From the NCBI GenBank assembly GCA_030737835.1, contig JAUJYN010000082.1, forward strand, positions 123,828 through 187,827: DNA of 64,000 nucleotides, written 5' to 3'. The stretch is from Acorus gramineus. Its lineage: Eukaryota; Streptophyta; Magnoliopsida; Acorales; Acoraceae. The position numbers and the translations under genes were made by a program. The notes beneath the pieces are model-generated. The model made no database searches, was not told the origin of the DNA, and was given only the letters and a program-made list of their open reading frames with translations. Below, piece by piece: positions 29,244 through 61,501 of the stretch (position 1 is the stretch's first letter; each line of letters opens with the position of its first letter).

Positions 29244-32200
29244 CTATTGTCCAAGAATATGAACTTCTTGATCAAGTGAAGTTGCTGTCCCATCAAAGGC
29301 ACTTCCTTCACCAGCGCTCTTTTCAACTTGGCCTGTAGTCCTTATAGAGGTACTTTCGACAATTATATCTTCTGTAATTTTATTCTGCTCAGAATCCTGT
29401 TGCTCTTCAATCGTAGGAAATGTGAATGCGTCCGAACCATTCTCGTCGCGCCTGTGATTGTACTTCAAATTCTCATCAATTGCACTGTAATCCAAATTCC
29501 GCAATATACTTGGGATGGATTCATTCCCACCCATCATAAATTTACTGCCCATTTCTATGTCAATCTTCTCCTTTGGGCTGATCATATCTATGCCAGTACT
29601 TGGAGTAGCGGATCCAACCTCGATTTGCTCATCTATCACCCATGACCGGAAATTGTTCAGTGAAGGAGGGATCCTTGTGAAGAACAACTCCTTGAAATTC
29701 CTTAACAACCCCTTGTTATATGGATTTTCTCTCTTATCATATCGATATCGAAAGTTTTCATAGGTCGTCTGCAATATAAATGGAAAGAATAATGATCCTT
29801 GTATGAATGCAAGAAATCATGTACATTTATACACATCATGAATGCAAGAATCTCTCTTTTTTTTCTTTTTTTTTGTTTATAGGTGAAAACATGTTATATC
29901 AAACATATAGTTGAAGAGTTCTACTTATATTACACATTGAATACAGGAAAAACAGTCTCCAATTAGTATAAGAGAAACATGAAGTAGAGAAGTAAAAAAA
30001 AAACCTGATTTGTGCTGATCAGATATAGATGGAAAATGGTGAGCCCTCCAACAAACCAAACTGCTATAAAAGTGTACACTATGAGCGCAATCGACAAACC
30101 ATGTCCCTTAATTGCTTTCCATAATTCCAAGTTTTGTAATTTCTTTTCCTCGTAAATATTGACCCACGAGAAGGTGAAGACATAGATACACAAGAAGGTT
30201 GAGGTTGATATAAATAAGAAGAAGAATCGGTAATTACGCTGTAATAGATTCAAATGAAACCAGTTAGATACAACAAAACACCCAAAAAATTGCATCATTA
30301 GCATATGTATTCCTAGAAAATGAACTTACAAGTCCAATGCACTGACCAACCCATGGGCAATGGTGATCAAATCTCTGGACGCAATTGTTGCAGACTGAAC
30401 AGTGAGATGCACGGGGTGGGCGATAAAGCAAACAAGTATCACAGTATTTCACTTTCACTGCACAACCATTTACAATGACATCTTTGGTTCGGGGTAGTCT
30501 TAGATGAGGAGTTCTCCCATGGACCCATTCCATAGATGGAGTCGTGACATCAAAGCCTTCGTCAGACTCTGGTGGTCTAGAATTCCTGGGCACTATACCT
30601 GGATCTCTACCAGATGTCAAGAAGAGAAATATCAAATCCTGCATTTGTCATCAAAAGGAAATGAGAATCAATTAATACACACGAATCCTAATCCAAATGA
30701 TAAATCAGATAACCAGAAAGATAAAATTTTCAAAGAAGATAGAGAGGATAACACTCTCTCCAAGATTTTTTCTATGACCAGAAACCCCAACATTTGTTGG
30801 AAAATTCCAGATGGAAAAATAGTAAGAATAGTAAAAAAAAATAAGATTAACATTGATAACAATAACACTAAGACTAATAGTAAAATAAAAATAATAGCAA
30901 GAATAACTGTTGTTGTTATTGCTATTCATAATGGTATTGTTACTTTTATAATTTTGTTCTTACTAATGTTCTTACTCCTTTGTTATTGTTGTTGTTGTTA
31001 TTCTTATTGTTATTGTTAATGTTATTCTTATCGTTATTCTTATTGTTATGTAAGCCCTAGAGGGTTCAAACTAAGACCTGTGAAGAAAACTTTTTGGCTC
31101 TAGCCAGAGAGCCAACCCCATGTGGGTTAATCTCCAAGAGTTAACTGACATCATAACTTGTTTTGAAGAGATGGGAAAATATCTGTCCATCAATCAAGTT
31201 GTCACTAAGAGATATCAATAGATCAACAAAATCATGCAATGAAATTGTAACAAAAATATATATGAGATTCTGAACCGGCATGAAGTTTTAAAAGCGCATG
31301 TGAAGGAAGGATTGGGAAACCTTGGTTTAGCAAAATGATCTAAATGAGATTCTGAACTCGTTGGACAATATTCGACACGTGAAGAAAGCAGTGGATATAG
31401 CAGCAGCTGGCCTCACAAAGGATAGGTTGGACTATACATGCTTTCTACAAGGATTGCAATTCATAGTCCATATTTGCTATGGTTTTCATTATATTTATAT
31501 TTGTGTTTATTTGACTAGTTCTCGTTCTATTGATATTGTGACATGCAAAGAGTGATCTCACCCATCTCCAAGGATAGGAGTTGATTCAAACTTCATCCCA
31601 ACATAATAAATTTTGTTTTGTTTTGATATCAAAATTGGCAAGCAAAATATTTCAGCAGATACTTTGAAGGCGGGAATTGGAAGAATAATATGTGAGAATA
31701 ACATAAATATCATACTCACTGACAAAGTGACGATGACAGCCACAAATGTAACCACAACATGATAGACATATAATAACTGTTCTTCAAGGGGGTCCAATTT
31801 TTTTTCACTGTTTTGGATATTTTCTTCTTGGTTGTTGATCTTCTCAATCATCTGCCAACAGAATGCAATTGCTGGACCAGCTATGAGAAGTGCAGATAAA
31901 AACAGTGATGCTACATCTGGACCAAATATCAATCTCCCGCCACAGATGAATTTCTGGAGCACACCCCACCCATCCACACAGGCCAAAGAAAAAATACAGA
32001 GAAACGACTGTCAGATTCAGTCTATAAATTAGGCATGGTAGATTTCACATGTCATAACACCAAGAATTTGAAAAAAATGTTCATTTTGTCACAAACTCAG
32101 ATCATTATTCAATATAACATCAAGGTCCAAAATTTCCTAGTTAGAAATGAAAAGAAAAACTTAACTTTTTAAAATCCCTATATGTTGTTGCTTATACAAC

Positions 32201-39864: not shown

Positions 39865-40243
39865 GATTTTGATTCGTAGATAAAAAGTCCAGCGTTATTC
39901 GATTGAGACATTATTTCATGGACAAAAAGTCCAGCGTTATTCGATTGAGACATTATTTCGTGGACATAAAGTCCAGCGTTATTCGATTGAGACATTATTT
40001 CGTGGACATAAAGTCCAGCGTTATTCGATTGAGACATTATTTCATGGACATAAAGTCCAGCGTTATTCGATTGAGACATTATTTCGTGGACATAAAGTCC
40101 AGTGTTATTCGATTGAGACATTATTTCGTGGACATAAAGTCTAGTGTTATTCGATTAAGACATTATTTCGTGGACAAAAAGTCCAGCGTTATTCAATTGA
40201 GACTCCTCATAGTAGACATTTTGTCATGTGTTATTCAATTTAA
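39865..40243. repeat. 42-bp tandem repeat, 7 good and 2 degenerate copies
   Basis: Near-identical copies begin at 39907, 39949, 39991, 40033, 40075, 40117 and 40159, with degenerate copies on each side. Each contains TGGACATAAAGTCCA, a 5-bp inverted repeat. Because 42 is a multiple of three, spurious open frames run through it on both strands; they are not genes. Confidence 0.95.
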
Positions 40244-41009
40244 ACAGGATTTGTGAAGACTTTCATAAGTGATGGATTCTTGTGGACTTTTGTGGACTTT
40301 AGAGAGAGAAATATAAAGGAAAAAGTCATTTCAAAATCCCACCCAAATGGGTGGGATTCTCATGGACTTTTATTCCAGCATTGTGAATATTTCTTCTTTT
40401 TTAACAAATCTACTTTATGATTTTTATCACGTGCCTTTCATATTTTTATTCACATTTTTTTTCTTTATTTATCATTTTTTTTTTTATGAATGTCCATATG
40501 TATGAAATATTCCTATCACCTCGTATGTTTGATGAATATATGAGAATGGTAAATTATATATGTTTGATAACGCAGTATTAATATACTTCATTCAACGTAG
40601 TCGGTTTTCATTTCCTGTACCAACATAAAAGAATCTATACCATTTATAGTGTTCTTTATGTGCACGCACGAAAAATAACACACTTTTTTTATTGCGGATG
40701 TCTAGACTTGAAATTTATGATGGTTAAACTTGATGGTTGTCATGTTGGTTTATCTATTATGGTTAAATAAAAATTTATGGTTGGTGGACTTATATTATTT
40801 TATTTTATTAATTTTTTATGATGTGTTTGATGTTTTATTTATCATATTTTTTATATATTAAATCTTTATTATTTAAAATATTCCATAAATTATTTTTAAG
40901 TTGCATCCTCATTGAAGATGTATCAATGAGTTCTTTATTTGTTATTTTAAAATTCTAAAAATATTTTTGTGTTTATTAATAGAAATCCACATGTGAAAAG
41001 AATCAATCT

Positions 41010-41395
41010 CTGAAAGTCTGTAAAAGTCTGTGAAAGTCCATGAGAGTGATTTGTGAAAGTCTGCAAAAGTCTGTGAAAGTCTATGAAAATCCATAAGAGT
41101 CAATCTGTGAAAGTCTGCAAATGTCTGTGAAAGTCCGTGAAAATCCATGAGAGTCAGTTTGTGAAAGTTTGCAAAAGTCTGTGAAAGTCTGCAAAAGTCT
41201 GTGAAAGTCCATGAGAGTCAGTTTGTGAAAGTCTGCAAATGTCTGTGAAAGTCCATGAGAGTCAGTTTGTGAAAGTCTGCAAAAGTCTGTGAAAGTCCAT
41301 GAGAGTCAATTTGTGAAAGTCTGCAAAAGTCTATAAAAGTCTACAAAAGTCTGTGAAAGTCCATGAAAGTCTGCAAAATCTACAAAAGTCCATCA
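41010..41395. repeat. Degenerate AGTCCA/AGTCTG tandem array
   Basis: Built of ~10-bp words such as GTGAAAGTCT, GCAAAAGTCT and CATGAGAGTC, arranged in higher units of about 45-60 bp. It shares the AGTCCA word with the 42-bp array. Confidence 0.85.
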
Positions 41396-42621: not shown

Positions 42622-43460
42622 TAGGCCTGTCAACGGGTTTGGTCCGGGTCCGGGTCGGGTTAGGGTAGACTCGGACCCGACCCGTGGCAAGACCCGGCGG
42701 GTCCAGGAAAATGTGGACCAGGACCCGTCGGACCCGGGTCGGGTCCGGGTCCGACCCGACCCGGATGGTTGGTAAAAAAAAAAGAAAAAAAAAAGAGCTC
42801 ATGTATTTGTTTGCCTTATCATTCTATTTGAAATTTTTTATAATAAAACATTATTATTAATGAGACTATGTTTGAATATAATTTTATACAATTCAAAAGA
42901 AGTAAATGAATTATTAAACAACATCCAAAACAATAATCACTAACATAAAAATATATTAACCTAAATAATAAACATAACTAATTATACAAACATTCAAAAT
43001 AATATTAACCTAAACAACATTCAAAACAATAAACACTAACATATTAACCTAAATAATAAACATAAATCATCAATAAACTAATTAATTATACAAATTCAAA
43101 AGCTAATAAGTTAATTGTCCAAAACAAACCGACGACAATACATTACTAAGTTTATTACATATTAAACAATCAAGTTCTTGCAAGTTGCAACATCAACACA
43201 ACGAAAAAAATATTATGATTATGATTATGACTTATGATTTATGGGTTTGTTATTACAAAAATAAGTTAAGTAAGAAATAAAATTATGTATCAATTAATAC
43301 TAATGGTCTTATAATATATGAGCATATTTTAATAAAACAATCGGGTCTCGGATCCAACGGGTCGGGGCGGGGTGGACCCGGACCCGACCCGTTTGTTTGT
43401 TCAGGTCCGCCGGGTCGGGTCCAACTCGGGTCGGGTATATTACACGTGTTGACAGGCCTA
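42622..43460. mobile_element. hAT-type MITE rich in GGGTCC/GGACCC
   Basis: Ends TAGGCCTGTCAACGGGT and (reverse complement) TAGGCCTGTCAACACGT are terminal inverted repeats. TGTATGTG is duplicated on both sides (42614-42621 and 43461-43468), the 8-bp target duplication of hAT elements. Both ends carry CGGGTCGGGTCC-type runs; the middle is AT-rich and noncoding. Confidence 0.92.
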
Positions 43461-44429: not shown

Positions 44430-44489
44430 ATGGGAAACACGTTGATCATCGGCGGCGGCGGCGGCAGCGGCAGCGGCAGCGGTCCTCGG
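44430..44489 (+). CDS. Candidate start exon, Gly/Ser-rich
   Basis: ATG followed by NTLII and a GGC/AGC triplet run, ending GPR, then donor GTAAGC. The 13-bp phrase GAAACACGTTGAT is directly duplicated across the start codon. The donor and everything after it match the LINE copy at 46054, so the exon border coincides with a LINE border. Confidence 0.45.
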
Positions 44490-47400
44490 GTAAGCAATCC
44501 CTTGGAATCTTATTAACCATTTATATTTCCATCTCCGATCGTTCGTTGTGAAAAACTCTTAAATCCGATGAATAACTTCTCTCCGATTCTTTAACAATGT
44601 GATTCGGTTTATCCATATTTTTTTATTTGCGATCTTATGAAAGAAACTCGTATTGTTATCACCCTCTTTTAACCACAATGCAAGTTCTTCCATATGATAT
44701 ATCGAATCAATGGCGGATTTAACACTTGAACGTTCTTCATGCCTTATCGAATCTAGTGGACCGTCCTCTTCTTAAAATGTCAATCCGCCCAATAATTTAA
44801 GATAGCTCCATCTTCCTCTGTCTTCTGTTTGTTTTAGCCTTGCGTCCCCATTCTGAAAGAAAGCCCGACAGATTGATTCAATCAATCTTGTTAAGAATAC
44901 CTCTGGGAATGCGAAACACTAATAAAAAGAACTAAGGCAAACTGGATGGGACATATTGGGCCTCCCATGCTATGTAGTCATCCCTTCCATCCAGCCAACC
45001 TTGCCTGAATTCTTTGAATGAGTGGATTCCACTCTCTCTTTGATAGTTTGTTCTTCACATTTGAGAGTCTGAGATGGTGAAAAGGGAGACTCTGCAGTTG
45101 ACATCCGACCACTCTAGCAAGGCCTTCAGATTCCAAATCCCCCACATCAATTAAAATCATTTAGCTTTTCTCCCAATTAATCTTCAGCCCGGATAAAGGT
45201 TCAAACCAACTCAAAATAAATTTGAATCCCCACATGTTATCTTCATTTGCTTCAGCCAAAAGTAGGGTATCATCTGCATATTGCAAATGGGAGCATCTGG
45301 AGCCGCCAACTGTACTAGAAAGTCCTTTGATCCATCCATCCCCCTCGGCTTGATGGCACATGCGACTTAATATGTTAGCCACCAGGATGAATAACTCCAG
45401 CGATAAAGGGTCTCCCAGTCGAAGACCCCTGTTTAGGTGAAAATACCCATGCAACTTGCCATCCAACATGATTGATGCCTTGGCGGTGTTTATGCATTGG
45501 GATATCACGCGCAACCATGGTGGTTCAAACACGTGAAGAGACATGACTTGGAGAAGGAACTCATGGTCCACACAGTCATAGGCTTTAGAGATATCTAATT
45601 TTAGCACGATGCCATTTCGATTGTCCTTGTGAATCACTGTAATTGTCTCTTGAACCATAAGAAAACCATCCCGGAGGCTTTACCCTTTCAAAAATGCAGT
45701 TTGGTTGGCCTCCACCATGTGCGCGCACACTCGCCTTAGCCAGTTGGCTAGAACCTTGGCTATCATCATACAACAACCATTAAGTATTAACCAAGCAAAT
45801 TGAGTGAAGGTCCTCAATCCGCTTTGCCGCTTCCTTTTTAGGAATCAGAACAAATGCCGATGAATCAATGAATCCAATCTTCTGGCTGCCATTATAAAAT
45901 TCATTAAACATCTCCAAGACACCATCCTTAATTATATTCCAATATTTTGGTAGAAATGAAGGCCGAAACAATTCGGACCCCGGGATTTGTCACCATCCGC
46001 TCCAAAAATGGCTGCCTTTATTTCCTCCTCTTCGAAAGGCTGCTCCGGTTCACGTAAGCAATCCCTTGGAATTCTGCTTAAATCTTCATCAAACCATTTA
46101 GGTTTCCATCTCCAATCCTTTTGAAAGACTCTCTTAAAATGTTGCACCACCTTGCTTTGAATCTGAGCTTCCTCCGTGATTAACTCCTCTCCGATTCTGT
46201 AATGATGTGATACAGTTTATCCTTCTTCTTTGACTTGCAATCCTATGAAAGAACCTTGTATTATTCTTGCGCTCCTTTAACCACAATGCCTTAGACCATT
46301 GTCTCCATTCAAGTTCTTTCATATGGTAAATAGAATCAATGGCGGGTTTAGCCCTTGAACGTTCTTCCCGCCTTATCGATTCTAGTGGACCGTCCTCTTC
46401 TTCAAACTCAATCCGCAATAAGTTAAGATAGCTCCATCTTCCTCTGTCTTCTTTTTGTTTTAGCCTTGCGTCCCCATTCTGTAAGCATTCGCAATAAGTT
46501 AAGTTGATGTTTTATTTATTTTGTTTCTTAATTATAAAGAAAATTGATTTGAAGTTTTCAATATCATCCAAGAATATATCAATACTACAAGTAATAGAAA
46601 ATAAAGTGTCATCATTACATATTCAACTAAAATGGCATAGATAGATACGAAAAGAAAATTTCAAATTCCCATCCATGGGATGCCGATGGTTCGTCCTTTC
46701 TCCCCTCAGTCAAGTGTCGTAGACTAAGGTCAATAATGATCCATCGAGGACAACTGGAGGGGGTGGGGGTACTATTGGAATTGAGAGTGTGGTAGCCGGA
46801 GTATCTCTGACCGGCCTAGATTCTTTTGATGGTGATGCACCATCCACGGAACAACTTGCACTCCCAAGGAAAAGAATGCCTATTGATTTTACTAGCGGAG
46901 GTAGGGATGATGGTTGAGTTTTGCAACCGACACTTCAATGTGAACGCATTGTTGGTAGGAGTGGTAAACTAGTCGAGCAGCTTGGGCTCGAATCGGTTGG
47001 AGCTTGTTCATGCTTTTTCGATTAGACAAATGAGCTGAGCCTGCCTGAGTCTGAACCCAAGCTGAGCCACGAGCCTATACAACCTCGTTTACTTAAAAGA
47101 AAGGGAGGGGACTTCTTCATTCCTCAATGCATATGAGCATCTCTGATTTGAGTTTGACAAATGTTATATGTTTTCGGCATGTTTTAATTGATAAATAAGT
47201 TTTTTTTAAGGTAAACGAACCCAAGCTCAAGCTTTGGTTTGAGCTTAGACTCAAGTTTGTTTTACAAACGAGTTGTGTCGAGCTTCAACCGAGCTTTTCA
47301 CGAGCCTAACAAGCCGATCTTGAACACAAAATTAATCTCGGTCGAATGCCGAGCCGAGCTCAGACCGAGCCAAATTATAAACGAGCCAAAGTTGAACATG

Positions 47401-50400
47401 TTAAAGCTCGGCTCGCTCTCCTCATTTATCACCCCTAACTGTCGGTCATGGAGGTGCTGATACGAGCAAAGGGAAGGCCGGAACCACCATCTTCAGTCAT
47501 AGTTCAATATGGAGATGATGCCTTCGATGGGCAAGGCCTTCGATGCATGGGGGAGTCCGAGGACATTGATGATGTGCGCGATGTGGGAGCACGGAGGGGC
47601 ATAACACCGAGGGAGGCATAGGGGTACTTGTTTGAGGTAATTGTTGAGCATACGTGTGTGGTTGTTCCATACAGTCCCGGTGATTTGCGCGAGGACAACA
47701 AAACCTAATGTTAAAAATTGTCTTAGTTGGAATTTTAGGGGGACTAATGAGCCAAGTAAATAAAAGGCGATCGTATTCTAATTTTTTTTTACATTTATTA
47801 TTATGTTAAGATAGAATTTGTAAAGTTATATTCGCTAATGTGATCTTTTTTTTTTTTTGGAATTGGTTTAGGCTCCTCATCAAACATCGCTGTACCTGTT
47901 GTTGCCCTGGTGATCTTGTTTTTTTTTAATTTAGATTTTTTTCTAGCAACTATTATTTTAAGTTGATATTTTATTTAATTTGTTTCTTAATTATAAAGAA
48001 AGTTGATTCGCAGTATTCAACAACATCTAAGAATTTATCAATACTACAAGTAATAGAAAATAAAGTGTCATCATTACATTTTCTGTTAAGATGGTAGAGA
48101 TAGATATAAAAAGAAAATTTCTAGAATTCCCATCCATGGGATGCCGTTAGTTCGTCCTTTGTCCCCTCAGTCATGTGTCGTAGACTAAGGTTGAGGATGA
48201 TCCATTGAGGACAACTGGAGGGGGTGGGGGTACTATTGGAATTGAGGGTGTGGTAGCCGGAGTATCACTCTTATCGTCCGAATTCTTTTGATGGCGATGC
48301 ATCATCCATGGAGCAAATTGCACTGCCAAGGGGAAGAATGCCTGTTGATTTTACTAGCGGAGTTTGGGATGGAGGCTGAGTTCTGCAACTGAGACTTCAA
48401 TGTGCATGTATGTTGGCAGGGGTGGTAAATGAGCCGAGCATCTCGGGCTCGGATCGGTTGGAGCTCGTTCGGGCTTGTTCGATTAGAAAATGAGTTGAGC
48501 TTGAACAATTTTAAAGGTTGATTGTAAAAGAGAAGAGCCGGCCCGAGCTCGAGCTAACCCACAAGCCTATACGAGCTCATTTACTTAAAAGAAGAGGGGA
48601 AAAAAACTGTTGCACTTTATTCTTCAATGCATCCGAGCATCTCTTATCTGAGCTTGACAAATGTTGTGTTTTTGTTTCAATTGTTAAACGAGCTTTTTCT
48701 TAGTTAAAGAAGCCCGAGCTCGTGCTTTGGTTCTAGCTTATACTCGAGCTTGTTTTACAAACGAGCCGAGTCGGGCTTCAACCGAGCTTATCACGAGTCA
48801 AATGAGTCGAGCTTGAACACAAAATTAAGCTCGATCCCATGTCAGCTGAGCCCAGTCGAGCCTAATTATAAATGAGCCGTGTTTGAACATGTCAAAGCAC
48901 GACCGCTTTGCTTTTTTACCACCCCTAACAAGCTCAACAATAGCAGTGGGTCGGAGTACTATTGGAATTGAGGGTGTGGTAGCCGGAGTATCACTCTTAT
49001 CGGCCTGGATTCTATTGATGGCGATGCACCATCGATGTAGTAAATTGCACTGCCAAAGGGAAGATTGCATGTTAATTTTACTAGCAGGGCTACGGATGGT
49101 GGCTGAGTTCTCCAACTGAGGCTTCGACGTGAATGGACTGTTGGTCATGGAGGTGGTGATACGGGCGAAGGGAAGGCTGAAACCGCCATCTTCAATCACA
49201 ATCCAATATGGATGACGCCTTTAGGTTGGCCTTCACCATAGAGGGATCCATGGTTGTCCTAAACAATCACGGGTGGAGTTGGGATGATCGAAGCAGGGGG
49301 AGTCGGCGATGAAGAGTTCAGTGAGGCAACAACACCAACCCCCGATTCCCATCCTCCCTGGGTCGACCCAGACCACCAGTGTTAGGTGTCAATCACGCAA
49401 TTGACCTACTACTCATGCAAAGGTTCTTTTATGCACCAGGAACCACAACGAGGACGGGAAAGGAAATTATTATAGCTGGCATGGGGTCTAAAAGGGCGGC
49501 CCTCAGCCCACACTGAGATGGTACATGCCATGCAGGAGGGCATTCGCGGTCACTCTTTGACAGGTGTAAGATTTGGCGGGAGATGAGGATTTTGTTGACC
49601 ATGGTTAGGGATCTAGATCGGATTCGAGAGGTCACGGTGAACCATCCTTGCGGATCCAGAACCATTGGCCTGGGTGGGCCTGGGCTTGGTATGGGGCGAC
49701 CCAAGAATTGGAAGGGACCTATTCAAGCTTGTCTATCAAGCTCAATTGCTTTGAGGGTCCCCTTATTCGGTTGGATATCGGTTTGTTTTTGCATTGGGGA
49801 TAAGAAGGATGATTCCGGCGGGGTCATCACTCGTTGTTCTGGTGAAGGTGGATGGAAAGTGGTAGGTACGGAGATTGGGGAGACGGAGTTCTTGCCTTCT
49901 GTGGGGCAGAAAACGAGAGAGAAGAAAAGGAAGGTCCTCGGTCACTAAGGTGACAATGACATCGGTGATCAATGGAGAGGAGCTTGCTTGCGAGTGATAA
50001 AAAAGCCTTGATAAAAAAGCCTGGGATTCTCATCAAGGATGCATATAATAAGGAGAAATTTATCTTCTTCCTCGGCAAGGCCTTCGATGCAAGGGGGTGT
50101 TTGAGGACATTGATGGTGTGCGTGATGTGGGAGCACGGAGGGGCACAACACCGAGGGAGGCATAGGGGTACCTGTTTTAGGTAATCGATCGGCATACATG
50201 TGTGGTTGTTCCATACAGTCCCGGTGATTTGCACGAAGACAACAAAACCTAATGTTAAAAATTGTCTTAGTTGGAATATTTGGGGGATTAATGAGCCAAG
50301 TAAATAAAAGGCGATCGTATTCTAAATTTTTTTTATATTTATATTATGTAAAGATAAAATTTGTAAAGTTATATTCGCTAATGTGATCTTTTTTTTTTTT

Positions 50401-53400
50401 GGAATTGGTTCAGGCTCTCATCAGAACAAGAACAACGCTGTACCGCATGCTGCACAGGTGATCTTGTTGTTTTTTTATTTAGATTTTTTTCTTGCAACTA
50501 TTATATTAAGTTAATATTTTATTTAATTTGTTTCTTAATTTAAAGAAAGTTGATTCGAAGTATTCAACATCTAAGAATTTTTCAATACTACAAGTAATAG
50601 AAAATAAAGTGTCATCATTACATATTCTGTTATGATGGCAGAGAAAGATTAAAAAGAAAATTTCTAGAATTCCCATCCATGGGATGCCGTTAGTTCATCC
50701 TTTGTCCCCTCAGTCAAGTGTCGTAGACTAAGGTCGAGGATGATCTATTGAGGACAACTGGAGGGGGTGGGAGTACTATTGGAATTGAGGGTGTGGTAGC
50801 CGGAGTATCACTCTTATCGTCCCGAATTCTTTTGATGGCGATGCATTATCCATGGAGCAAATTGCACTGCCAAGGGGAAGAATGCCTGTTGATTTTACTA
50901 GCGAGTTCGGGATGGAGGCTGAGTATTTCAACTGAGACTTCAATGTGCATGTACTGTTGGCAGGGGTGGTAAACGAGCCGAGCATCTCGGGCTCGAATCG
51001 GTTGGAGCTCGTTCGGGCTTGTTCGATTAGACAAATGAGTTGATCTTTAACAAATTTAAAGGTCGGTTGTAAAAGAGGAGAGCCGGCCCGAGCTCGAGCT
51101 GACCCACAAGCTATACGAGCTCGTTTACTTAAAGAGGAGGGGAAAAAAACTGTTGCTCTTCATTCTTCAATGCATCTGAGCATCTCTGATCTGAGCTTGA
51201 CAAATGTTATGTGTTTTTTGCATGTTTCAATTGTTAAACGAGCTTTTTCTTAGTTATAGAAGCCCGTCTCAAGCTTTGGTTCAGCTTATACTCGAGCTGT
51301 TTTACAAACGAGCCGAGTAGGGCTTCAACCGAGCTTATCACGAGTCAAACGAGTCGAGCTTGAACACAAAATTAAGCTCGATCCCATGTTGAGCCTAATT
51401 ATAAATGAGCCGTGTTTGAACATGTCAAAGCTCGACTCGCTTTGCTAATTTACCACCCCTAACAAGCTCAACAATAGTAGTGGGTCGGGGTACTATTGGA
51501 ATTGAAGGTGTGGTAGCCGAGTATCACTCATATCGGCCGGGATTCTATTAATGGCGATGCACCATCGATGTAGTAAATTGCACTGCCAAAGGGAAGATGG
51601 CATGTTGATTTTACTAGTAGGGCTCCGGATGGTGGCTGAGTTCTCCAACTGAGGCTTCGACGTGAATGGACTGTTGGTCATGGAGGTGGTGATACGGGCG
51701 AAGGGAAGGCTGAAACCGCCATCTTCAATCACAATCCAATATGGAGATGACACCTTTAGGTTGGCCTTCACCATAGAGGGATCCATGATTGTCCTAAACA
51801 ATCACGGGTGGAGTTGGGATGATTGAAGCAGGGGGAGTCGGCGATGAAGAGTTCAGTGAGACGACAACACCAACCCCCGATTCCCATCCTCCCTGGTCGA
51901 CCCAGACCACCCGTGTTAGGTGTCACATCACGCAATTGACCTACTACTCATGCAAAGGTTCTTTTATGTACTAGGAACCACAATGAGGACGGGAAAGAAA
52001 TTATTATAGCTGGCATGGGGTCTAAAATGGCGGCCCTCAACCCACACTAATATGGTACATGCCATGCAGGAGGGCATTCACGGTCACTCTTTGACAGGTG
52101 TAAGATTTGGCGGGAGATGAGGATTTTGTTGACCATGGTTAGGGATCTAGATCGGATTCGAGAGGTCACGGTGAACCATCCTTGCGGGTCCAGAACCATT
52201 GGCCTGGGTGGGCCTGGGCTTGGTATGGGAGCGACCCAAGAATTGGAAGGGACCTATTCAAGCTTGTCTATCAAGCTCAATTGCTTTGAGGGACCCCTTA
52301 TTTGGCTGGATATGGGTTTGCTTTCGCATTGGGGATACGAAGGATGATTCCGGCGGGGTCATCACTCGTAGTTCTTGGTAAGGTGGATGGAAAGTGGTAG
52401 GTACGAGATTGGGGAGACGGAGTTCTTGCCTTCTGTGGGGCAGATGGGGTGGAGAGCTGAGGCAGAAAACGAGAGAGAAGAAAAGGAAGGTCCTCGGCCA
52501 CTAAGGTGACAATGACATCGGTGATCAAGGAGAGGACTTGCTGGCGTGTGATAAAAAAGCCCGGGATTCTCATCAAGGATGCATAGAATAAGGAGAAATT
52601 TATCTTCTTCCTCGGCAAGGCCTTCGATGCGTGGGGGTGTCTGAGGACATTGATGGTGTGTGCGATGTGGGAGCACGGAGGGGCACAACACCGAGGGAGG
52701 CATAGGGGTACCTGTTTGAGGTAATCGCTGGGCATACGTGTGTGGTTGTTCCATACAGTCCCGTGATTTGCGCGAGAACAACAAAACCAAATGTTAAAAA
52801 TTGTCTTAGTTGGAATATTAGGGGGATTAATGAGCCAAGTAAATAAAAGGCGATCGTATTCTAAATTTTTTTATATTTATTATTATGTAAAGATAAAATT
52901 TGTAAAGTTATATTCGCTAATGTGATCTTTTTTTTTTTTGGAATTGGTTCAGGCTCCTCATCAGAACATCGTTGTACTGTTGCTCCTCAGGTGATCTTGT
53001 TTTTTTGTATTTAGATTTTTTTTCTTGCAACTATTATTAAGTTGATATTTTATTTAATTTGTTTCTTAATTATAAAAAGTTGATTCGAAGTATTCAACAA
53101 CATCTAAGAATTTATCAATACTACAAGTAATAGAAAATAAAGTGTCATCATTACATTTTTGTTAAGATGGAGAGATAGATATAAAAAGCAAATTTCTAGA
53201 ATTCCCATCCATGGGATGCCGTTAGTTCGTCCTTTGTCCCCTCAGTCATGTGTTGTAGACTAAGATTGAGGATGATCCATTGAGGACAACTGGAGGGGTG
53301 GGGGTACTATTGGAATTGAGGGTGTGGTAGCCGGAGTATCACTCTTATCGTCCCGAATTCTTTTGATGGCGATGCATCATCCATGGAGCAAATTGCACTG

Positions 53401-56400
53401 CCAAGGGAAGAATGCCTGTTGATTTTACTAGCGGAGTTCGGGATGGAGGCTGAGTTCTGCAACTAAGACTTCAATGTGCATGTACTGTTGGCAGGGGTGG
53501 TAAATGTGCCGAGCATCTCGGGCTCGGATCGGTTAGAGCTCGTTCGGCTTGTTCGATTAGACAAATGAGTTAAGCTTGAATAATTTTAAAGGTCGGTTGT
53601 AGAAGAGGAGGGCCGGCCCGAGCTCGAGCTGACCCACAAGCCTATACGAGCTCGTTTACTTAAAAGAGGAGGGGAAAAAAACTGTTGCGCTTTATTCTTC
53701 AATGCATCCGGGCATCTCTGATCTGAGTTGACAAATGTTATGTGTTTTTTGCATGTTTCAATTGTTAAACAAGCTTTTTCTTAGTTAATGAAGCCCGGGC
53801 TTGAGCTTTGGTTCGAGCTTATACTCGAGCTTGTTTTACAAACGAGCCGAGTCGGGCTTCAACCGAGCTCTTCACGAGTCAAACGAGTCGAGCTTGAACA
53901 CAAAATTAAGCTCGATCCCATGTCGAGCTGAGCCTAGTCGAGCCTAATTATAAATGAGCCGTGTTTGAACATGTCAAAGCTCGACTCGCTTTGCTAGTTT
54001 ACCACCCCTAACAAGCTCAACAATAGCAGTGGGTCGGGGTACTATTGGAATTGAGGGTGTGGTAGCCGGAGTATCACTCTTTTTGGCCTAGATTCTATTA
54101 ATGGCGATGCACCATCGATGTAGTAAATTGCACTGCCAAAGGGAAGATTGCATGTTGATTTTACTAGCAGGGCTCCGGATGGTGGCTGAGTTCTCCAACT
54201 GAGGCTTCGACGTGAATGGACTGTTGGTCATGGGGTGGTGATACGGGCGAAGGGAAGGCTGAAACCGCCATCTTCAATCACAATCCAATATGGAGATGAC
54301 GCTTTAGTTTGCCTTCACCATAGAGGGATGCATGGTTGTCCTAAACAATCACGGGTGGAGTCAGGATGATCGAAGCAGGGGGAGTGGCGATGAAGAGTTC
54401 AGTGAAGCGACAACAACAGCCCCGATTCCCATCCTCCCTGGGTCGACCCAGACCACCCGTGTTGGGTGTCACATCACGCAATTGACCTACTACTCATGCA
54501 AAGGTTCTTTTATGCACCAGGAACCACAATGAGGACGGGAAAGGAAATTATTATAGTGGCATGGGGTCTAAAAGGGCGGCCCTCAGCCCACACTGATATG
54601 GTACATGCCATGCAAAAGGGCATTCGCGGTCACTCTTTGACATGGGTAAGATTTGGCGGGAGATGAGGATTTTGTTGACCATGGTTAGGGATCTAGATCG
54701 GATTCGGGAGGTCACGGTGAACCATCCTTGCGGGTCCAGAACCATTGGCCTGAGTGGGCCTGGGCTTGGTATGGGGGCGACCCAAGAATTGGAAGGGACC
54801 TATTCAAGCTTGTCTATCAAGCTCAACTTCTTTGAGGGTCCCCTTATTTGGTTGGATATGGGTTTGTTTCTGCATTGGGGATACAAATGATGGTTCCGGC
54901 GGGGTCATCACTTGTAGTTCTTGGTGAAGATGGACGGAAAGTGGTAGGTACGGAGATTGGGGAGACGGAGTTCTTGCCTTTTGTGCGGCAGATGGGTGGA
55001 AGAGGTGCGGTAGAAAATGAGAGAGAAGAAAAGGAAGGTCCTTGGTCACTAAGGTGACAATGACCTCGGTGATCAATGGAGAGGAGCTTGCCTGTGTGTG
55101 ATAAAAAAGCCTAGGATCTCATCAAGGATGCATAGAATAAGGAGAAATTTATCTTCTTCCTCGGCAAGGCCTTCGATGCAGGGGGTGTATGAGGACATTG
55201 ATGGTGTGTGCGATGTGGGAGCACGGAGGGGCACAACACCGAGGAGGCATAGGGGTACCTGTTTGAGGTAATCGTTGGGCATACGTGTGTGGTTGTTCCA
55301 TACAGTCCCGTGATTTGCGCGACAACAACAAAACCAAATGTTAAAAATGTCTTAGTTGGAATATTAGGGGATTAATGAGCCAAGTAAATAAAAGGCGATC
55401 GTATTCTAAATTTTTTTTTATTTTTTATTATGTAAAGATAAAATTTGTAAAGTTATATTCGCTAATGTGATCTTTTTTTTTTTTGGAATTGGTTCAGGCT
55501 CATCATGAGAACATCGCTGTACCTGATGCTGCTCAGGTGATCTTGTTTTTTTTTTATTTAGATTTTTTTCTTGCAACTATTATTAAGTTGATATTTTATT
55601 TAATTTGTTTCTTAATTATAAAGAAAGTTGATTCGAAGTATTCAACAACATCTAAGAATTTATCAATACTACAAGTAATAGAAAATAAAGTGTCATCATT
55701 ACATTTTCTGTTAAGATGGAGAGATAGATATAAAAAGAAATTTCTAGAATTCCCATCCATGGATCCGTTAGTTTCCTTTGTCCCCTCAGTCATGTGTCGT
55801 AGACTAAGGTCGAGGATGATCCGTTGAGGAAACTGGAGGGGGTGGGGGTACTATTGGAATTGAGGTGTGGTAGCCGGAGTATCACTCTTATCGTCCCGAA
55901 TTCTTTTGATGGCGATGCATTATCCATGGAGCAAATCAAGGGGAAGAATGCCGTTGATTTTACTAGCGGAGTTCGGGATGGAGGCTGAGTTCTGCAACTG
56001 AGACTTCAATGTGCATGTACTGTTGGCAGGGGTGGTAAACGAGCCGAGCATCTCGGGCTCGGATCGGTTGGTGCTCGTTCGGGCTTGTTCGATTAGACAA
56101 ATGAGTTGAGCTTGAACAATTTTAAAGGTCGGTTGTAAAAGAGGAGAGCCGGCCTAGCTCGAGCTGACCCACAAGCTATACGAGCTCGTTTACTTAAAAG
56201 AGGAGGGGAAAAAAACTGTTGCGCTTTATTCTTCAATGCATCCGCATCTCTGATCTGAGCTTGACAAATGTTATGTGTTTTTTGCATGTTTCAATGTTAA
56301 ACGAGCTTTTTCTTAGTTAAGAAGCCGAGCTCGTGCTTTGGTTCGAGCTTATACTCGAGCTTGTTTTACAAACGAGCCGAGTCGGGCTTCAACTGAGCTC

Positions 56401-59400
56401 TTCACGAGTCAAACGAGTCGAGCTTGAACACAAAATTAAGCTCGATCCCATGTCGAGCTGAGCCTAGTCGAGCCTAATTATAAATGAGCCGTGTTTGAAC
56501 ATGTCAAAGCTCGACTCGCTTTGCTAGTTTACCACCCCTAACAAGCTCAACAATAGCAGTGGGTCGGGGTACTATTGGAATTGAGGTGTGGTAGCCGGAG
56601 TATCACTCTTTTGGCCTAGATTCTATTAATGGCGATGCACCATCGATGTAGTAAATTGCACTGCCAAAGGGAAGATTGCATGTTGATTTTACTAGCAGGG
56701 CTCCGGATGGTGGCTGAGTTCTCCAACTGAGGCTTCGACGTGAATGGACTGTTGGTCATGGAGGTGGTGATACGGGCGAAGGGAAGGCTGAAACCGCCAT
56801 CTTCAATCACAATCCAATATGGAGATGACTCTTTAGGTTGGCCTTCACCATAGAGGGATCCATGGTTGTCCTAAACAATCACGGGTGGAGTTGGGATGAT
56901 CGAAGCAGGGGGAGTTGAAGAGTTCAGTGAGGCGACAACACCAACCCCGATTCCCATCCTCCCTGGGTCGACCCAGACCACCCGTGTTAGGTGTCACATC
57001 ACGCAATCGACCTACTACTCATGCAAAGGTTCTTTTATGCACCAGGAACCACGAGGAGGACGGGAAAGGAAATTATTATAGCTGGCATGGGTCTAAAAGG
57101 GCGGCCCTCAGCCCACACTGATATGGTACATGCCATGCAGGAGGGCATTCGCGGTCACTCTTTGACATGGGTAAGATTTGGCGGGAGATGAGGATTTGCT
57201 GACCATGGTTAGGGATCTAGATCGGATTCGGAGGTCACGGTGAACCATCCTTGCGGGTCCAGAACCATTGGCCTGAGTGGGTTGGGCTTGGTATGGGGGC
57301 GACCCAAGAATTGGAAGGGACCTATTCAAGCTTGTCTATCAAGCTCAACTTCTTTGAGGGTCCCCTTATTCGGTTGGATATGGGTTTGTTTTGCATTGGG
57401 GATACAAAGGATGGTTCCAGCGGGTCATCACTTGTAGTTCTTGGTGAAGATGGATGGAAAGTGGTAGGTACGGAGATTGGGGAGACAGTTCTTGCCTTTG
57501 TGCAGCAGATGGGTGGAAGAGGTGCGGCAGAAAATGAGAGAGAAGAAAAGGAAGGTCCTTGGTCACTAAGGTGACAATGACATTGGTGATCAATGGAGAG
57601 GAGCACGCTTGCGAGTGATAAAAAAGCCTGGGATTCTCATCAGGGATGCATAGAATAAGGAGAAATTTATCTTCTTCCCGGCAAGGCCTTCGATGCAAGG
57701 GGGTGTTGAGGACATTGATGGTGTGTGCGATGTGGGAGCACGGAGGGGCACAACACCGAGGGAGGCATAGAGGTAATCGCTGGGCATACGTGTGTGGTTG
57801 TTCCATACAGTCCCAGTGATTTGCGCAGAACAACAAAACCAAATGTTAAAAATTGTCTTAGTTGGAATATTAGGGGATTAATGAGCCAAGTAAATAAAAG
57901 GCGATCGTATTCTAAATTTTTTTTATATTTATTATTATGTAAAGATAAAATTTGTAAAGTTACATTCGCTAATGTGATCTTTTTTTTTTTTTGGAATTGG
58001 TTCAGGCTCCTCATCAGAACATCGTTGTACCTGTTGCTCCTCAGGTGATCTTGTTTTTTTGTATTTAGATTTTTTTTCTTGCAACTATTATTTTAAGTTG
58101 ATATTTTATTTAATTTGTTTCTTAATTATAAAGAAAGTTGATTCGAAGTATTCAACAACATCTAAAATTTATCAATACTACAAGTAATAGAAAATAAAGT
58201 GTCATCATTACATTTTCTGTTAAGATGGGAGAGATAGATATAAAAAGCAAATTTCTAGAATTCCCATCCATGGGATGCCGTTATTTCGTCCTTTGTCCCC
58301 TCAGTCATGTGTTGTAGACTAAGGTTGAGGATGATCCATTGAGGACAACTGGAGGGGGTGGGGGTACTATTGGAATTGAGGGTGTGGTAGCCGGAGTATC
58401 ACTCTTATCGTCCGAATTCTTTTGATGGCGATGCATCATCCATGGAGCAAATTGCACTGCCAAGGGGAAGAATGCCTGTTGATTTTACTAGCGGAGTTGG
58501 GATGGAGGCTGAGTTCTGCAACTGAGACTTCAATGTGCATGTATTGTTGGCAGGGGTGGTAAATGAGCCGAGCATCTCGGGCTCGGATCGGTTGGAGCTC
58601 GTTCGATTAGAAAAATGAGTTGAGCTTGAACAATTTTAAAGGTTGGTTGTAAAAGAGAAGAGCCGGCCCGAGCTCGAGCTAACCCACAAGCCTATACGAG
58701 CTCATTTACTTAAAAGAGGAGGGGAAAAAAACTGTTGCACTTTATTCTTCAATGCATCCGAGCATCTCTTATCTGAGCTTGACAAATGTTGTGTGTTTTT
58801 TGCATGTTTCAATTGTTAAACGAGCTTTTTCTTAGTTAAAGAAGCCCGAGCTCGTGCTTTGGTTCTAGCTTATACTCGAGCTTGTTTTACAAACGAGCCG
58901 AGTCGGGCTTCAACCGAGCTTATCACGAGTCAAATGAGTCGAGCTTGAACACAAAATTAAGCTCGATCCCATGTCGAGCTGAGCCCTAGTCGAGCCTAAT
59001 TATAAATGAGCCGTGTTTGAACATGTCAAAGCACGACCGCTTTGCTTTTTTACCACCCCTAACAAGCTCAACAATAGCAGTGGATCGGAGTACTATTGGA
59101 ATTGAGGGTGTGGTAGCCGGAGTATCACTCTTATGGCCTGGATTCTATTGATGGCGATGCACCATCGATGTAGTAAATTGCACTGCCAAAGGGAAGATTG
59201 CATGTTGATTTTACTAGCAGGGCTCCGGATGGTGGCTGAGTTCTCCAACTGAGGCTTTGACGTGAATGGACTGTTGGTCATGGAGGTGGTGATACGGGCG
59301 AAGGGAAGGCTGAAACCGCCATCTTCAATCACAATCCAATATGGATGATGCCTTTAGGTTGGCCTTCACCATAGAGGGATCCATGGTTGTCCTAAACAAT

Positions 59401-61501
59401 CACGGGTGGAGTGGGATGATCGAAGCAGGGGGAGTCGGCGATGAAGAGTTCAGTGAGGCAACAACACCAACCCCCGATTCCCATCCTCCCTGGGTCGACC
59501 CAGACCACCAGTGTTAGGTGTCAAATCACACAATTGACCTACTACTCATGCAAAAATTCTTTTATGCACCAGGAACCACAACGAGGACGGGAAAGGAAAT
59601 TAGTATAGCTGGCATGGGGTCTAAAAGGGCGGCCCTCAGCCCACACTGAGATGGTACATGCCATGCAGGAGGGCATTCGCGGTCACTCTTTGACAGGTGT
59701 AAGATTTGGCGGGAGATGAGGATTTTGTTGACCATGGTTAGGGATCTAGATTGGATTCGAGAGGTCACGATGAACCATCCTTGCGGATCCAGAACCATTG
59801 GCCTGGGTGGGCCTTGGCTTGGTATGGGGGCGACCCAAGAATTGGAAGGGACCTATTCAAGCTTGTCTATCAAGCTCAACTGCTTTGAGGGTCCCCTTAT
59901 TCGGCTAGATATGGGTTTGTTTTCGCATTGGGGATACGACGGATCGACCTGGTGAGGGCCATCACTTGTAATTCTTGGTTAAGGTGGATGGGAAGTGGTA
60001 GGTAAGAAGATTGGGGTTCTTGCCTTATGGGGCACTTGGGGTGGGAGAGGTGAAACAGAAACGAGGGAGAGAAGAAAAGGAAGGTCCTCGGTCACTAAGG
60101 TGACAATGACATTGGTGATTAATGTAGAGGAGCTTGCTTGCAAGTGATCAAAAAGCCTGGGATTCTCATTAAGGATGCATAGAATAAGGAGAAATTTATC
60201 TGCTTCCTTGGCAAGGCCTTCGATGCATGGGGGTGTTTGAGGACATTGATGGTGTGCGCAATGTGGGAGCACGGAGGGGTACAACGCCGAGGGAGTAGGG
60301 GTACCAATTTCAGGTAATGGCTGGGCATACATTTGTGGATGTTCCATACAGTCCCAGTGATTTGCGCGAGGACAACAAAACCTAATGTTAAATTGTCTTA
60401 GTTGGAATATTATGGGGATTAATGACCCAAGTAAACAAAAGGCAATCGTATTCTAAATTCTTTTTATATTTATTATTATGTTAAGATAAGATTTGTGAAG
60501 TTATATTCACTAATGTGATCTTTATTTTTATTTTTTTTTATTTTTTTGGGAATAGGTTCAGGTTCCTCCCGGTCAGGTGATCTTGTTTTTTTTATTTAGC
60601 TTTTTTTTCTTGCAACTATTATTTTATTTAATTCTGTTTCTTAATTATGAAGATAGTTGATTTGAAGTATTCAATAACAGCATTCTATCTTTTTTCTCGC
60701 TTTTTCTCTCACCCCAAGTTCGTATATGTACATGGTATTCATTTATAATAAAATCAACGTAGCAAGTGTGCCTGCTGCATTGACAATGTCATGGCACAAC
60801 TGTAATCTGCACTTGTATGCCTTCATGCCACCATTTCTGAATCAGAACAAACTCAGACATGCATTGAACTGTTGTGGAAAATCAACAGGCATTCTTCCCC
60901 TTGTTTGTGTTGGGGAATCAGAACAAACTCAGACATGCATTGAACTATTGTGGAAAAAAAGGGACAGCCCAAAAGCAATCACAGAGGCCACCACCTCCAC
61001 TGGTGCTGCACATGGCCTTCAATCAAATATTGCTCCTGCCTGATACCTTCTGCATGTGTATTTTGCAGGGTGATGAAGAGGAAGCTCTGAAGAATCAAGC
61101 AGGAGCTGAGGCGCTCATTCCATGGCACCGAAGGGTAAAGCTGTTCAGTTTTTTAAGATTGAGTAAATTTTTGTTTCATAGAACTAAAAATATATTCTTC
61201 TAAACAGGTTCTCTCAGGTGAGGACCTGTCTAGGTACATGTCCATAATAACTTGCGTGGTTACTGTATACGCGATGGCATCCTTCGCTCTTCTTGCCACG
61301 GGGTTAAGTGTGCATGCTGGAGTTACATGGACCATGATGGTTTTCTTCATCGGGATGGCGATCTGCATGATACTCGCGGGCACTGGCCGGTTCCAGAATT
61401 TCTGCGTCCTATACTTGTCCCTTTGCTGTGGCATAATTGTCTTTGGTGTTCTGCTCGTATTTTGCATCGCTGCAAAAGTGAAAGCCAAGAAAAGGGCATG
61501 A
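44430..61501 (+). CDS. Unrecognised membrane-protein gene with amplified microexons (model)
   Basis: I do not recognise this protein. Candidate exons: 44430-44489 (start exon, 20 aa, Gly/Ser-rich), in-frame microexons 55498-55536, 58006-58044 and 60562-60576, then 61069-61134 and 61208-61501. All are phase 0 with GT-AG borders. The microexons encode AHHENIAVPDAAQ, APHQNIVVPVAPQ and VPPGQ. Exon 61069-61134 gives an acidic/Ala linker ending ALIPWHRR. The last exon gives 97 residues with three hydrophobic helices (about residues 10-34, 41-62 and 68-93 of that exon) and a basic end KVKAKKRA. Further microexon copies at 47872, 50414 and 52953 would shift the frame. The first exon is linked only by phase, strand and donor, across a LINE and the array, so it is the weakest part. 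The last two exons are the strongest. Confidence 0.5.
44490..44873 (-). mobile_element. LINE fragment, first copy
   Basis: Aligns along its length with 46054-46482 (GTAAGCAATCCCTTGGAAT, CCATCTCC.., CTTAGCC-type TTTTAGCCTTGCGTCCCC), but with many changes and deletions. It is antisense to the candidate gene and forms the start of its first intron. Confidence 0.75.
44945..46482 (-). pseudogene. Decayed non-LTR retrotransposon (LINE) reverse transcriptase region
   Basis: The minus strand encodes broken frames in LINE order: the pre-RT segment (ALWLKERKNNTRFFHRIAS, about 46230-46300), the RT core (LKLDISKAYDCVDHEFL near 45570-45600; RGLRLGDPLS near 45420; the catalytic box QYADDTLLL near 45270), and the thumb/connection segment (LARVVGCQLQSLPFHHL.., LAGWKG near 44985-45130). 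Frameshifts and stops separate them. The endonuclease half upstream and the 3' end are missing, so this is a dead, doubly truncated copy. Confidence 0.9.
46957..47436. mobile_element. hAT-like MITE in unit 0
   Basis: Ends AGGAGTGGTAAA and (reverse complement) AGGGGTGATAAA; the interior is rich in GAGCTCG/CGAGCTT. Flanks TTGTTGGT and CTGTCGGT may be an 8-bp target duplication. Orthologous copies sit at the same place in units 1-5: 48418-48926, 50962-51460, 53493-54009, 56028-56539 and 58552-59060. Confidence 0.7.
47872..47909 (+). pseudogene. Microexon copy 0, 38 nt, frame-breaking
   Basis: Between GGTTTAG and GTGATC. One base is missing near CATCAAACATC and the end reads GTTGCCCTG instead of GCTGCTCAG. 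Inclusion would shift the frame. Confidence 0.5.
48418..48926. mobile_element. hAT-like MITE in unit 1
   Basis: Terminal AGGGGTGGTAAA and its inverse TTTTTACCACCCCT; same position in the unit as the others. Confidence 0.75.
50414..50457 (+). pseudogene. Microexon copy 1, 44 nt, frame-breaking
   Basis: Between GGTTCAG and GTGATC. It carries an extra AGAACA-like segment (GAACAAGAACAACG) and a changed end CATGCTGCACAG. Inclusion would shift the frame. Confidence 0.5.
50962..51460. mobile_element. hAT-like MITE in unit 2
   Basis: Terminal AGGGGTGGTAAA and its inverse TTTACCACCCCT. Confidence 0.75.
52953..52990 (+). pseudogene. Microexon copy 2, 38 nt, frame-breaking
   Basis: Nearly identical to copy 4 but with GTACTGTT for GTACCTGTT, a 1-base loss. 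Confidence 0.55.
53493..54009. mobile_element. hAT-like MITE in unit 3
   Basis: Terminal AGGGGTGGTAAA and its inverse TTTACCACCCCT. Confidence 0.75.
55498..55536 (+). CDS. Microexon copy 3, 39 nt, in frame
   Basis: Encodes AHHENIAVPDAAQ in phase 0. Preceded by TCGCTAATGTGATC, a T run and GGTTCAG; followed by GTGATC. Confidence 0.55.
56028..56539. mobile_element. hAT-like MITE in unit 4
   Basis: Terminal AGGGGTGGTAAA and its inverse TTTACCACCCCT. Confidence 0.75.
57841..57912 (+). pseudogene. LINE endonuclease-start-like segment (unit 4 example)
   Basis: The plus strand reads NVKNCLSWNIRGLMSQVNK then RRSYSK, resembling the start of a LINE endonuclease domain (LSWNIRGL followed by KRR). The same segment occurs in every unit just before the poly-T tract (for example near 47712, 50253, 52790 and 55340), with the frame broken in several. 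Confidence 0.5.
58006..58044 (+). CDS. Microexon copy 4, 39 nt, in frame
   Basis: Encodes APHQNIVVPVAPQ in phase 0 with the same splice signals. It is the copy closest to consensus. Confidence 0.55.
58552..59060. mobile_element. hAT-like MITE in unit 5
   Basis: Terminal AGGGGTGGTAAA and its inverse TTTTTACCACCCCT; shares private variants with the unit 1 copy. Confidence 0.75.
60562..60576 (+). CDS. Microexon copy 5, 15 nt, in frame
   Basis: Encodes VPPGQ. A 24-nt loss relative to the consensus keeps phase 0. Acceptor GGTTCAG and donor GTGATC are preserved. Confidence 0.5.
60577..61068 (+). other. Intron with 76-bp duplication and a microexon-like relic
   Basis: AATCAGAACAAACTCAGACA starts two copies 76 bp apart (60840 and 60916). 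Near 60995-61042 one frame reads TGAAHGLQSNIAPA, which resembles the microexon peptide, but it runs into a stop and has no donor. Confidence 0.45.
61069..61134 (+). CDS. Penultimate exon: acidic linker
   Basis: Between TTTTGCAG and GTAAAG, 66 nt, phase 0. It encodes GDEEEALKNQAGAEALIPWH then RR. Confidence 0.65.
61208..61501 (+). CDS. Last exon: three-helix membrane domain
   Basis: Starts after TAAACAG with VLSGEDLSRYMSIITC and ends KVKAKKRA and TGA; 97 residues. Three hydrophobic stretches alternate with short polar turns (VHAG, TGRFQN). The GC content and codon use stand out from the AT-rich surroundings, which supports real coding. No family recognised. Confidence 0.7.
   Translation, partial: VLSGEDLSRYMSIITCVVTVYAMASFALLATGLSVHAGVTWTMMVFFIGMAICMILAGTGRFQNFCVLYLSLCCGIIVFGVLLVFCIAAKVKAKKRA

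Follow-up and report, generated by a model that had tools for sequence, protein, structure and literature searches.

Very short internal exons are a regular component of plant genes, where exons of less than 51 nucleotides (nt) are common and make up about 5.5% of the Arabidopsis exons (PMC10808074), where sets of microexons of 1–15 nt have been described (PMC8831610), and where many microexons keep their position across species (PMC8831610, PMC10808074). Exon choice by RNA pairing is, in turn, known for genes such as Dscam, srp, and 14-3-3zeta, with a right docker in 14-3-3zeta, Mhc, and MRP1 and a left docker in Dscam exon 6; the origin proposed for these docker-selector systems is the duplication of an exon with one stem arm, and mutually exclusive exons tend to have similar lengths (PMC6071210). 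For plants, a database paper predicted 99 candidate mutually exclusive exons in Arabidopsis, taken there as the first evidence for plants, and termed its non-Drosophila data preliminary (PMC3923563), while the micro-exon genes of Schistosoma carry short exons (3–81 bp) with long introns between them (PMC10526429). In the literature surveyed, mostly titles and abstract starts, no description of a plant array of one microexon was found, which is no proof of absence. Here, we describe a locus of Acorus gramineus in which a tandem array carries six microexon-like blocks inside what may be a single gene; it occupies positions 44430–61501 of the window, i.e., of the whole 64,000-nt stretch analysed (assembly GCA_030737835.1, contig JAUJYN010000082.1, 123,828 to 187,827, forward strand).

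The array and its microexon candidates are real features of the sequence, and a gene model in phase 0 closes around them. The original prediction of a tandem array of ~2.5 kb with one block per unit holds, as the array is seen at 47530–60679 with six blocks; in the self-comparison, 47530–58160 and 50074–60679 share 92.6% identity, and the acceptor-to-acceptor spacings of u1–u6, computed from the coordinates, are 2542, 2539, 2545, 2508, and 2556 nt.

47530–60679, plus strand: tandem array, unit of ~2.54 kb, ~5 copies, 3.3–8.0% pairwise substitutions between full units
46499–47529, plus strand: shortened copy of the unit, upstream of the array, found by self-comparison
47872–47909, plus strand: block u1, 38 nt, frame-breaking if alone, ends in CTG, not CAG
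50414–50457, plus strand: block u2, 44 nt, frame-breaking if alone
52953–52990, plus strand: block u3, 38 nt, frame-breaking if alone, one C fewer than u5
55498–55536, plus strand: block u4, 39 nt, predicted product AHHENIAVPDAAQ
58006–58044, plus strand: block u5, 39 nt, predicted product APHQNIVVPVAPQ
60562–60576, plus strand: block u6, 15 nt, predicted product VPPGQ; an alternative acceptor gives 60556–60576, 21 nt

All six blocks stand between the words GGTT(C/T)AG and GTGATC, as had been claimed (five by pattern search, the sixth being 60562–60576), with a chance expectation for this acceptor/donor pattern of 0.11 per window, the array copies, however, not being independent; likewise, the branch-point-like CTAAT and the T run had been rightly placed upstream of every block. 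What did not survive is the uniform block of 39 nt resembling APHQNIVVPVAPQ, given that the lengths are 38, 44, 38, 39, 39, and 15 nt and only two of the six measure 39 nt. Taking plant microexons as internal exons of <51 nt with canonical splice signals, the six candidates, judged from their sequence only, fall within that range (15–44 nt) and carry AG/GT in every case. We also observed the word GTGATCTT with T-rich sequence directly before the acceptor and directly after the donor of each block (47826–47925, and alike in the other units), its copies forming a short direct repeat that flanks the block.

The putative gene around the array comprises the following exons:

44430–44489, plus strand: candidate exon 1, predicted product MGNTLIIGGGGGSGSGSGPR, ending in phase 0, donor GTAAGC
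61069–61134, plus strand: exon 3, 66 nt, predicted product GDEEEALKNQAGAEALIPWHRR, phase 0 on both sides
61208–61501, plus strand: exon 4, 294 nt, 97 amino acids and a stop codon, three predicted hydrophobic helices

The coordinate 44430, at which the predicted gene had been made to start and on which its description was silent, is the ATG of candidate exon 1; upstream of it, inspection by eye shows a leader rich in pyrimidines as well as a TATA-like stretch. Downstream of the array, both announced phase-0 exons are present, and exon 4 by itself is modelled with three helices: its structure model, built from one sequence, places them at residues 4–30, 35–56, and 62–96 (predicted local distance difference test, pLDDT, 72.3). 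The conceptual gene of 44430–61501 closes in phase 0 without any block or with u4, u5, or u6, with the block-free form having 139 residues, 97 of them from exon 4. We infer that exon 1, the blocks, and exons 3 and 4 would belong to one transcript.

With a probability of about 0.5, we read the locus as the duplicated and partly decayed microexon of a real plant gene, lying in a transposon-bearing intron. The gene would span ~17 kb and encode a small three-helix membrane protein, with exon 1 at 44430, exon 3 at 61069, and exon 4 at 61208. A segment of an intron, holding one phase-0 microexon and transposon debris, would have been duplicated in tandem, probably through unequal exchange, so that six microexon copies inherited the splice signals and then drifted, with three of them breaking the frame. 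The productive mRNA would most likely contain one or more of u4, u5, and u6, or skip the microexon altogether, whereas u1, u2, or u3 included singly would truncate the product at a stop six codons into exon 3; both the blocks in use and the mechanism of the duplication are inferred.

This reading is supported by the array and its copies, by the phase-0 closure of the conceptual gene, by the drift of the block relative to its flanks (given below), by a LINE (long interspersed nuclear element) reverse transcriptase fragment in the intron concerned, and by the splice signals. Scores were computed with self-chosen matrices of approximate Arabidopsis frequencies for all acceptors and donors lying 12–80 nt apart (acceptor >3, donor >0) on the plus strand of 44.3–61.7 kb, i.e., 545 pairs. 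In this set, u5, u4, u3, and u2 hold ranks 1–4 in that order, followed by u6 with its alternative acceptor (5), exon 3 (6), u6 (7), and u1 (10); the exon-1 donor is the first among 983 GT sites and the exon-3 acceptor the first among 1112 AG sites, and the best block pair reaches 18.5 vs. nothing above 12.9 on the minus strand of the locus. The resemblance of the blocks to exons under plant splice matrices is supported by these ranks.

A different explanation is that the blocks are splice-like words in an intronic repeat and not exons at all, with exon 1 being spliced directly to exon 3, or with the gene having some other start. We regard this as possible and somewhat unlikely, given that the blocks hold the top splice-pair ranks of the locus and that u4, u5, and u6 keep phase 0. 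It is favoured by the intact frame of exons 1, 3, and 4 without any block, by the three of six blocks that break the frame on their own, and by the behaviour of the array itself: the splice words are conserved no better than other array stretches, with 40% of the 7-column and 44% of the 6-column stretches being invariant across units U2–U6, and because invariance that high is array background, the conservation of these words has no weight of its own. Furthermore, few places in the unit vary as much as the block, with 14 of its 39 columns varying in u1–u5 vs. 32 of 324 in the flanks (Fisher 6e-5), and this speaks against an exon constraint on each of the copies. In a scan of the whole unit over U2–U5, counting substitutions only, 40 of 2671 scan windows are as variable as the block and fall in two clusters, the block being one of them; when gaps are counted, the scan windows as different as the block are 83 of 2671 in U2–U5 and 10 of 2671 in U2–U6. 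Positive selection on the block was considered for this variability and the claim was dropped, since silent and replacement changes are both present as judged by eye.

Several further results weigh against the reading of the blocks as copies of a real microexon. The variability just described is high but not unique (83/2671 with gaps). Some of the sites involved are weaker, namely the exon-3 donor (74/983 GT), the u1 donor (62/983 GT), and the exon-4 acceptor (28/1112 AG); the score of the block is equalled by 16 of 300 dinucleotide shuffles of one unit; and plus-strand pairs scoring at least 16 number 7 in the 17.4 kb of the locus vs. 13 in the 44.3 kb of the rest of the window (4.0 vs. 2.9 per 10 kb), where one pair (20.1) outscores every block. 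The six array copies of one unit are, for the splice ranking, a single observation. As to the protein, the conceptual product with u5 matched no Pfam family above the cut-off, only TctA at E 0.43, and a sequence search of PDB gave no match up to E 10. Finally, the exon-1 donor may be fortuitous, as LINE identity starts there.

Apart from these, a Foldseek search of PDB with the exon-4 model returned 50 matches up to E 10 and none up to 0.001. Two sets of candidate exon-4 relatives were discarded: one contig-search match with 16 of 38 residues in common, lying opposite a 387-amino-acid frame (presumably sulfatase-like) and attributed to chance, and viral contigs with 5 pattern matches, none of them confirmed.

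The evidence for a transposon-bearing intron comes in part from a Pfam search with ten reading frames, selected from intron 1 and unit U2, which, beyond the RVT_1 match listed first below, gave two below-cut-off matches in the same frame as RVT_1:

45161–45679, minus strand: antisense LINE reverse transcriptase fragment (RVT_1, E 1.7e-19)
44490–44863, minus strand: antisense LINE fragment, recognised by its identity to 46054 onwards, right edge approximate

Clear identity between the sequences starting at 44490 and at 46054 sets in at the exon-1 donor GTAAGC, so that this donor either derives from the LINE or marks the point of joining. In addition, three units were inspected by eye (U2, U6, and the shortened copy), and each contains a stretch, bounded by GGGGTGGTAAA and TTTACCACCCC, that resembles a small inverted-repeat DNA transposon; in the shortened copy, both ends of this stretch carry one change.

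The original prediction was a linker growing or shrinking with the copy number of the array, i.e., all or most blocks being spliced together so that the length of the array sets that of the linker. This is not supported, as the whole frame is kept by only 16 of the 64 possible subsets (any of u4–u6 with none or all of u1–u3), and the idea is weakened because of both the frames and the drift of the blocks; only three of the six lengths (u4, u5, u6) are divisible by three. The form with all six blocks does stay open, with 71 extra codons, because u1–u3 add up to 38 + 44 + 38 = 120 nt, but one total in three is divisible by three by chance, most of u1–u3 would be translated out of frame relative to the other copies, and the weak u1 donor (62/983) would be needed. 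We, therefore, take a linker set by copy number to be very unlikely.

The broken frames might also be artefacts of reading, the array being real and some single-base indels having been left uncorrected, perhaps those that break u1 and u3; this is compatible with the other explanations, and we think it unlikely. Pairs of units differ by 25–52 indel events, mostly of one base, vs. 86–207 substitutions, and the events are most numerous in pairs with U5 (44–52 vs. 25–37 in the other pairs). Deleted columns private to U5 number 52 and substitutions private to it 17, vs. 12 to 43 and 19 to 79, respectively, in the other units, and u3 lacks one of the two C residues of a CC pair in u5, all of which speaks for uncorrected errors. 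The excess, however, sits in U5, which carries the in-frame u5, and not in u1 or u3, and thus bears only indirectly on these two blocks, and the changes in u2 (44 nt) and u6 (15 nt) are larger.

In the intron ahead of exon 3 lies an element that matches, as an exact reverse complement, one stretch in each of three units and, almost exactly, one in each of three more, with the following layout:

60878–60903, plus strand: docker-like element ahead of exon 3, in sequence an inverted copy of the selector-like stretches below
46865–46890, plus strand: selector-like stretch 0, 88% complementary, between exon 1 and u1
48327–48352, plus strand: selector-like stretch 1, 26/26 complementary
50871–50896, plus strand: selector-like stretch 2, 26/26 complementary
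53402–53426, plus strand: selector-like stretch 3, 96% complementary
55932–55961, plus strand: selector-like stretch 4, 93.5% over 31 columns
58461–58486, plus strand: selector-like stretch 5, 26/26 complementary
60839–60881 and 60915–60957, plus strand: 43-nt direct duplication (97.7%) that brackets the docker-like element and overlaps its first 4 nt

Such a layout would fit a young docker-selector gene of a plant, in which 60878–60903 pairs with one of the stretches, loops out the later blocks, and brings the preceding block to exon 3, so that the pairing would set the number of later microexons looped out of the linker of the membrane protein and the frame-breaking copies would be off states. 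We hold this to be highly improbable, although it corresponds to the right-docker variant of PMC6071210 and has several points in its favour. The exact complementarity of 26 nt to three units, with 88–96% to the three further stretches, makes up the only exact inverted repeats of the window that reach 18 nt, span up to 17.4 kb, and are not simple sequence, among the matches listed (45 of the 54 pairs of at least 16 nt), simple sequence having been removed by a self-chosen entropy cut that also drops one GC-rich inverted pair of 18 nt at 42735 and 43374. The predicted duplexes reach −46.9 to −54.0 kcal/mol for stretches 1–5 and −37.4 kcal/mol for stretch 0, and the stretches keep a steady distance of 401–418 nt past the donors of u1–u5 (418, 414, 412, 401, and 417 nt, the fourth counted from 55937), with the docker-like element itself standing 302 nt past u6 and 166 nt ahead of exon 3.

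Against this stands the 43-nt direct duplication in which the element is set, just as templated filler DNA at a repaired break would be, and we consider such filler the sober rival to a docker at 60878–60903. Four further stretches within 51577–59222 (51587–51612, 54137–54162, 56665–56690, and 59187–59212), with an 85–88% match to the element and predicted duplexes of −35.2 to −37.6 kcal/mol, would bind about as well as stretch 0 and would compete. The pairing partners are not unusually accessible either, with a local unpaired probability of 0.46 for the element vs. 0.46 around it and of 0.26–0.62 for the stretches vs. 0.34–0.40, and another part of the same intron, 60982–61023, reaches −38.3 to −45.5 kcal/mol with the units (36 scan windows). 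Besides, three of the blocks thus chosen would break the frame.

Judged by its gene content and introns, the whole window looks like DNA of a plant. Elsewhere in the window, we noted a DHHC palmitoyltransferase exon at 30267–30644 on the minus strand (PF01529, E 4e-18), the first part of a protein at 25512–25985 on the minus strand, for which Pfam gave only Rubrerythrin below the cut-off and which we take to resemble the chloroplast magnesium-protoporphyrin cyclase CHL27, and a frame for an LYR-motif protein at 19584–19955 on the plus strand (Complex1_LYR, 24.1 bits, slightly below the cut-off of 24.8). Two other repeats were also found, namely a tandem array of a 42-bp unit at 39873–40203 (7.9 copies, 94% matches) and nested tandem repeats on the 10-bp word TCTGTGAAAG at 41007–41373, with longer periods of 44–64 bp.

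If any of the blocks is spliced, a transposon-bearing intron can multiply a small plant exon and offer many optional inserts at once, and if, in addition, block choice is governed by the inverted element, the locus would represent a young example, in a plant, of RNA pairing deciding between exons. In that event, the evolutionary route proposed in PMC6071210 would have been caught at its start. If the blocks are dead, what is seen is a commonplace array within an intron and a warning that the splice words of repeats should not be taken for exons.

Compared with the micro-exon genes of Schistosoma, the likeness is in the short exons parted by long introns, and the coding region here does not consist mainly of short exons, as exon 4 measures 294 nt and gives 97 of the 139 residues. 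A cluster of mutually exclusive exons would consist of neighbouring exons that are homologous, similar in length, and frame-keeping; the blocks here are homologous, but they measure 38, 44, 38, 39, 39, and 15 nt, with three of six in frame. The docker-selector clusters share with this locus a duplicated exon and intron, a selector-like stretch after five blocks (u1–u5), and, in the right intron, a single complementary element; they differ in that, here, half of the blocks break the frame and the splicing of the blocks is predicted. With the plant microexons, finally, the candidate shares its minute size and its internal place within a plant gene, and it differs from them in having no known family, in being variable, and in standing there in six copies.

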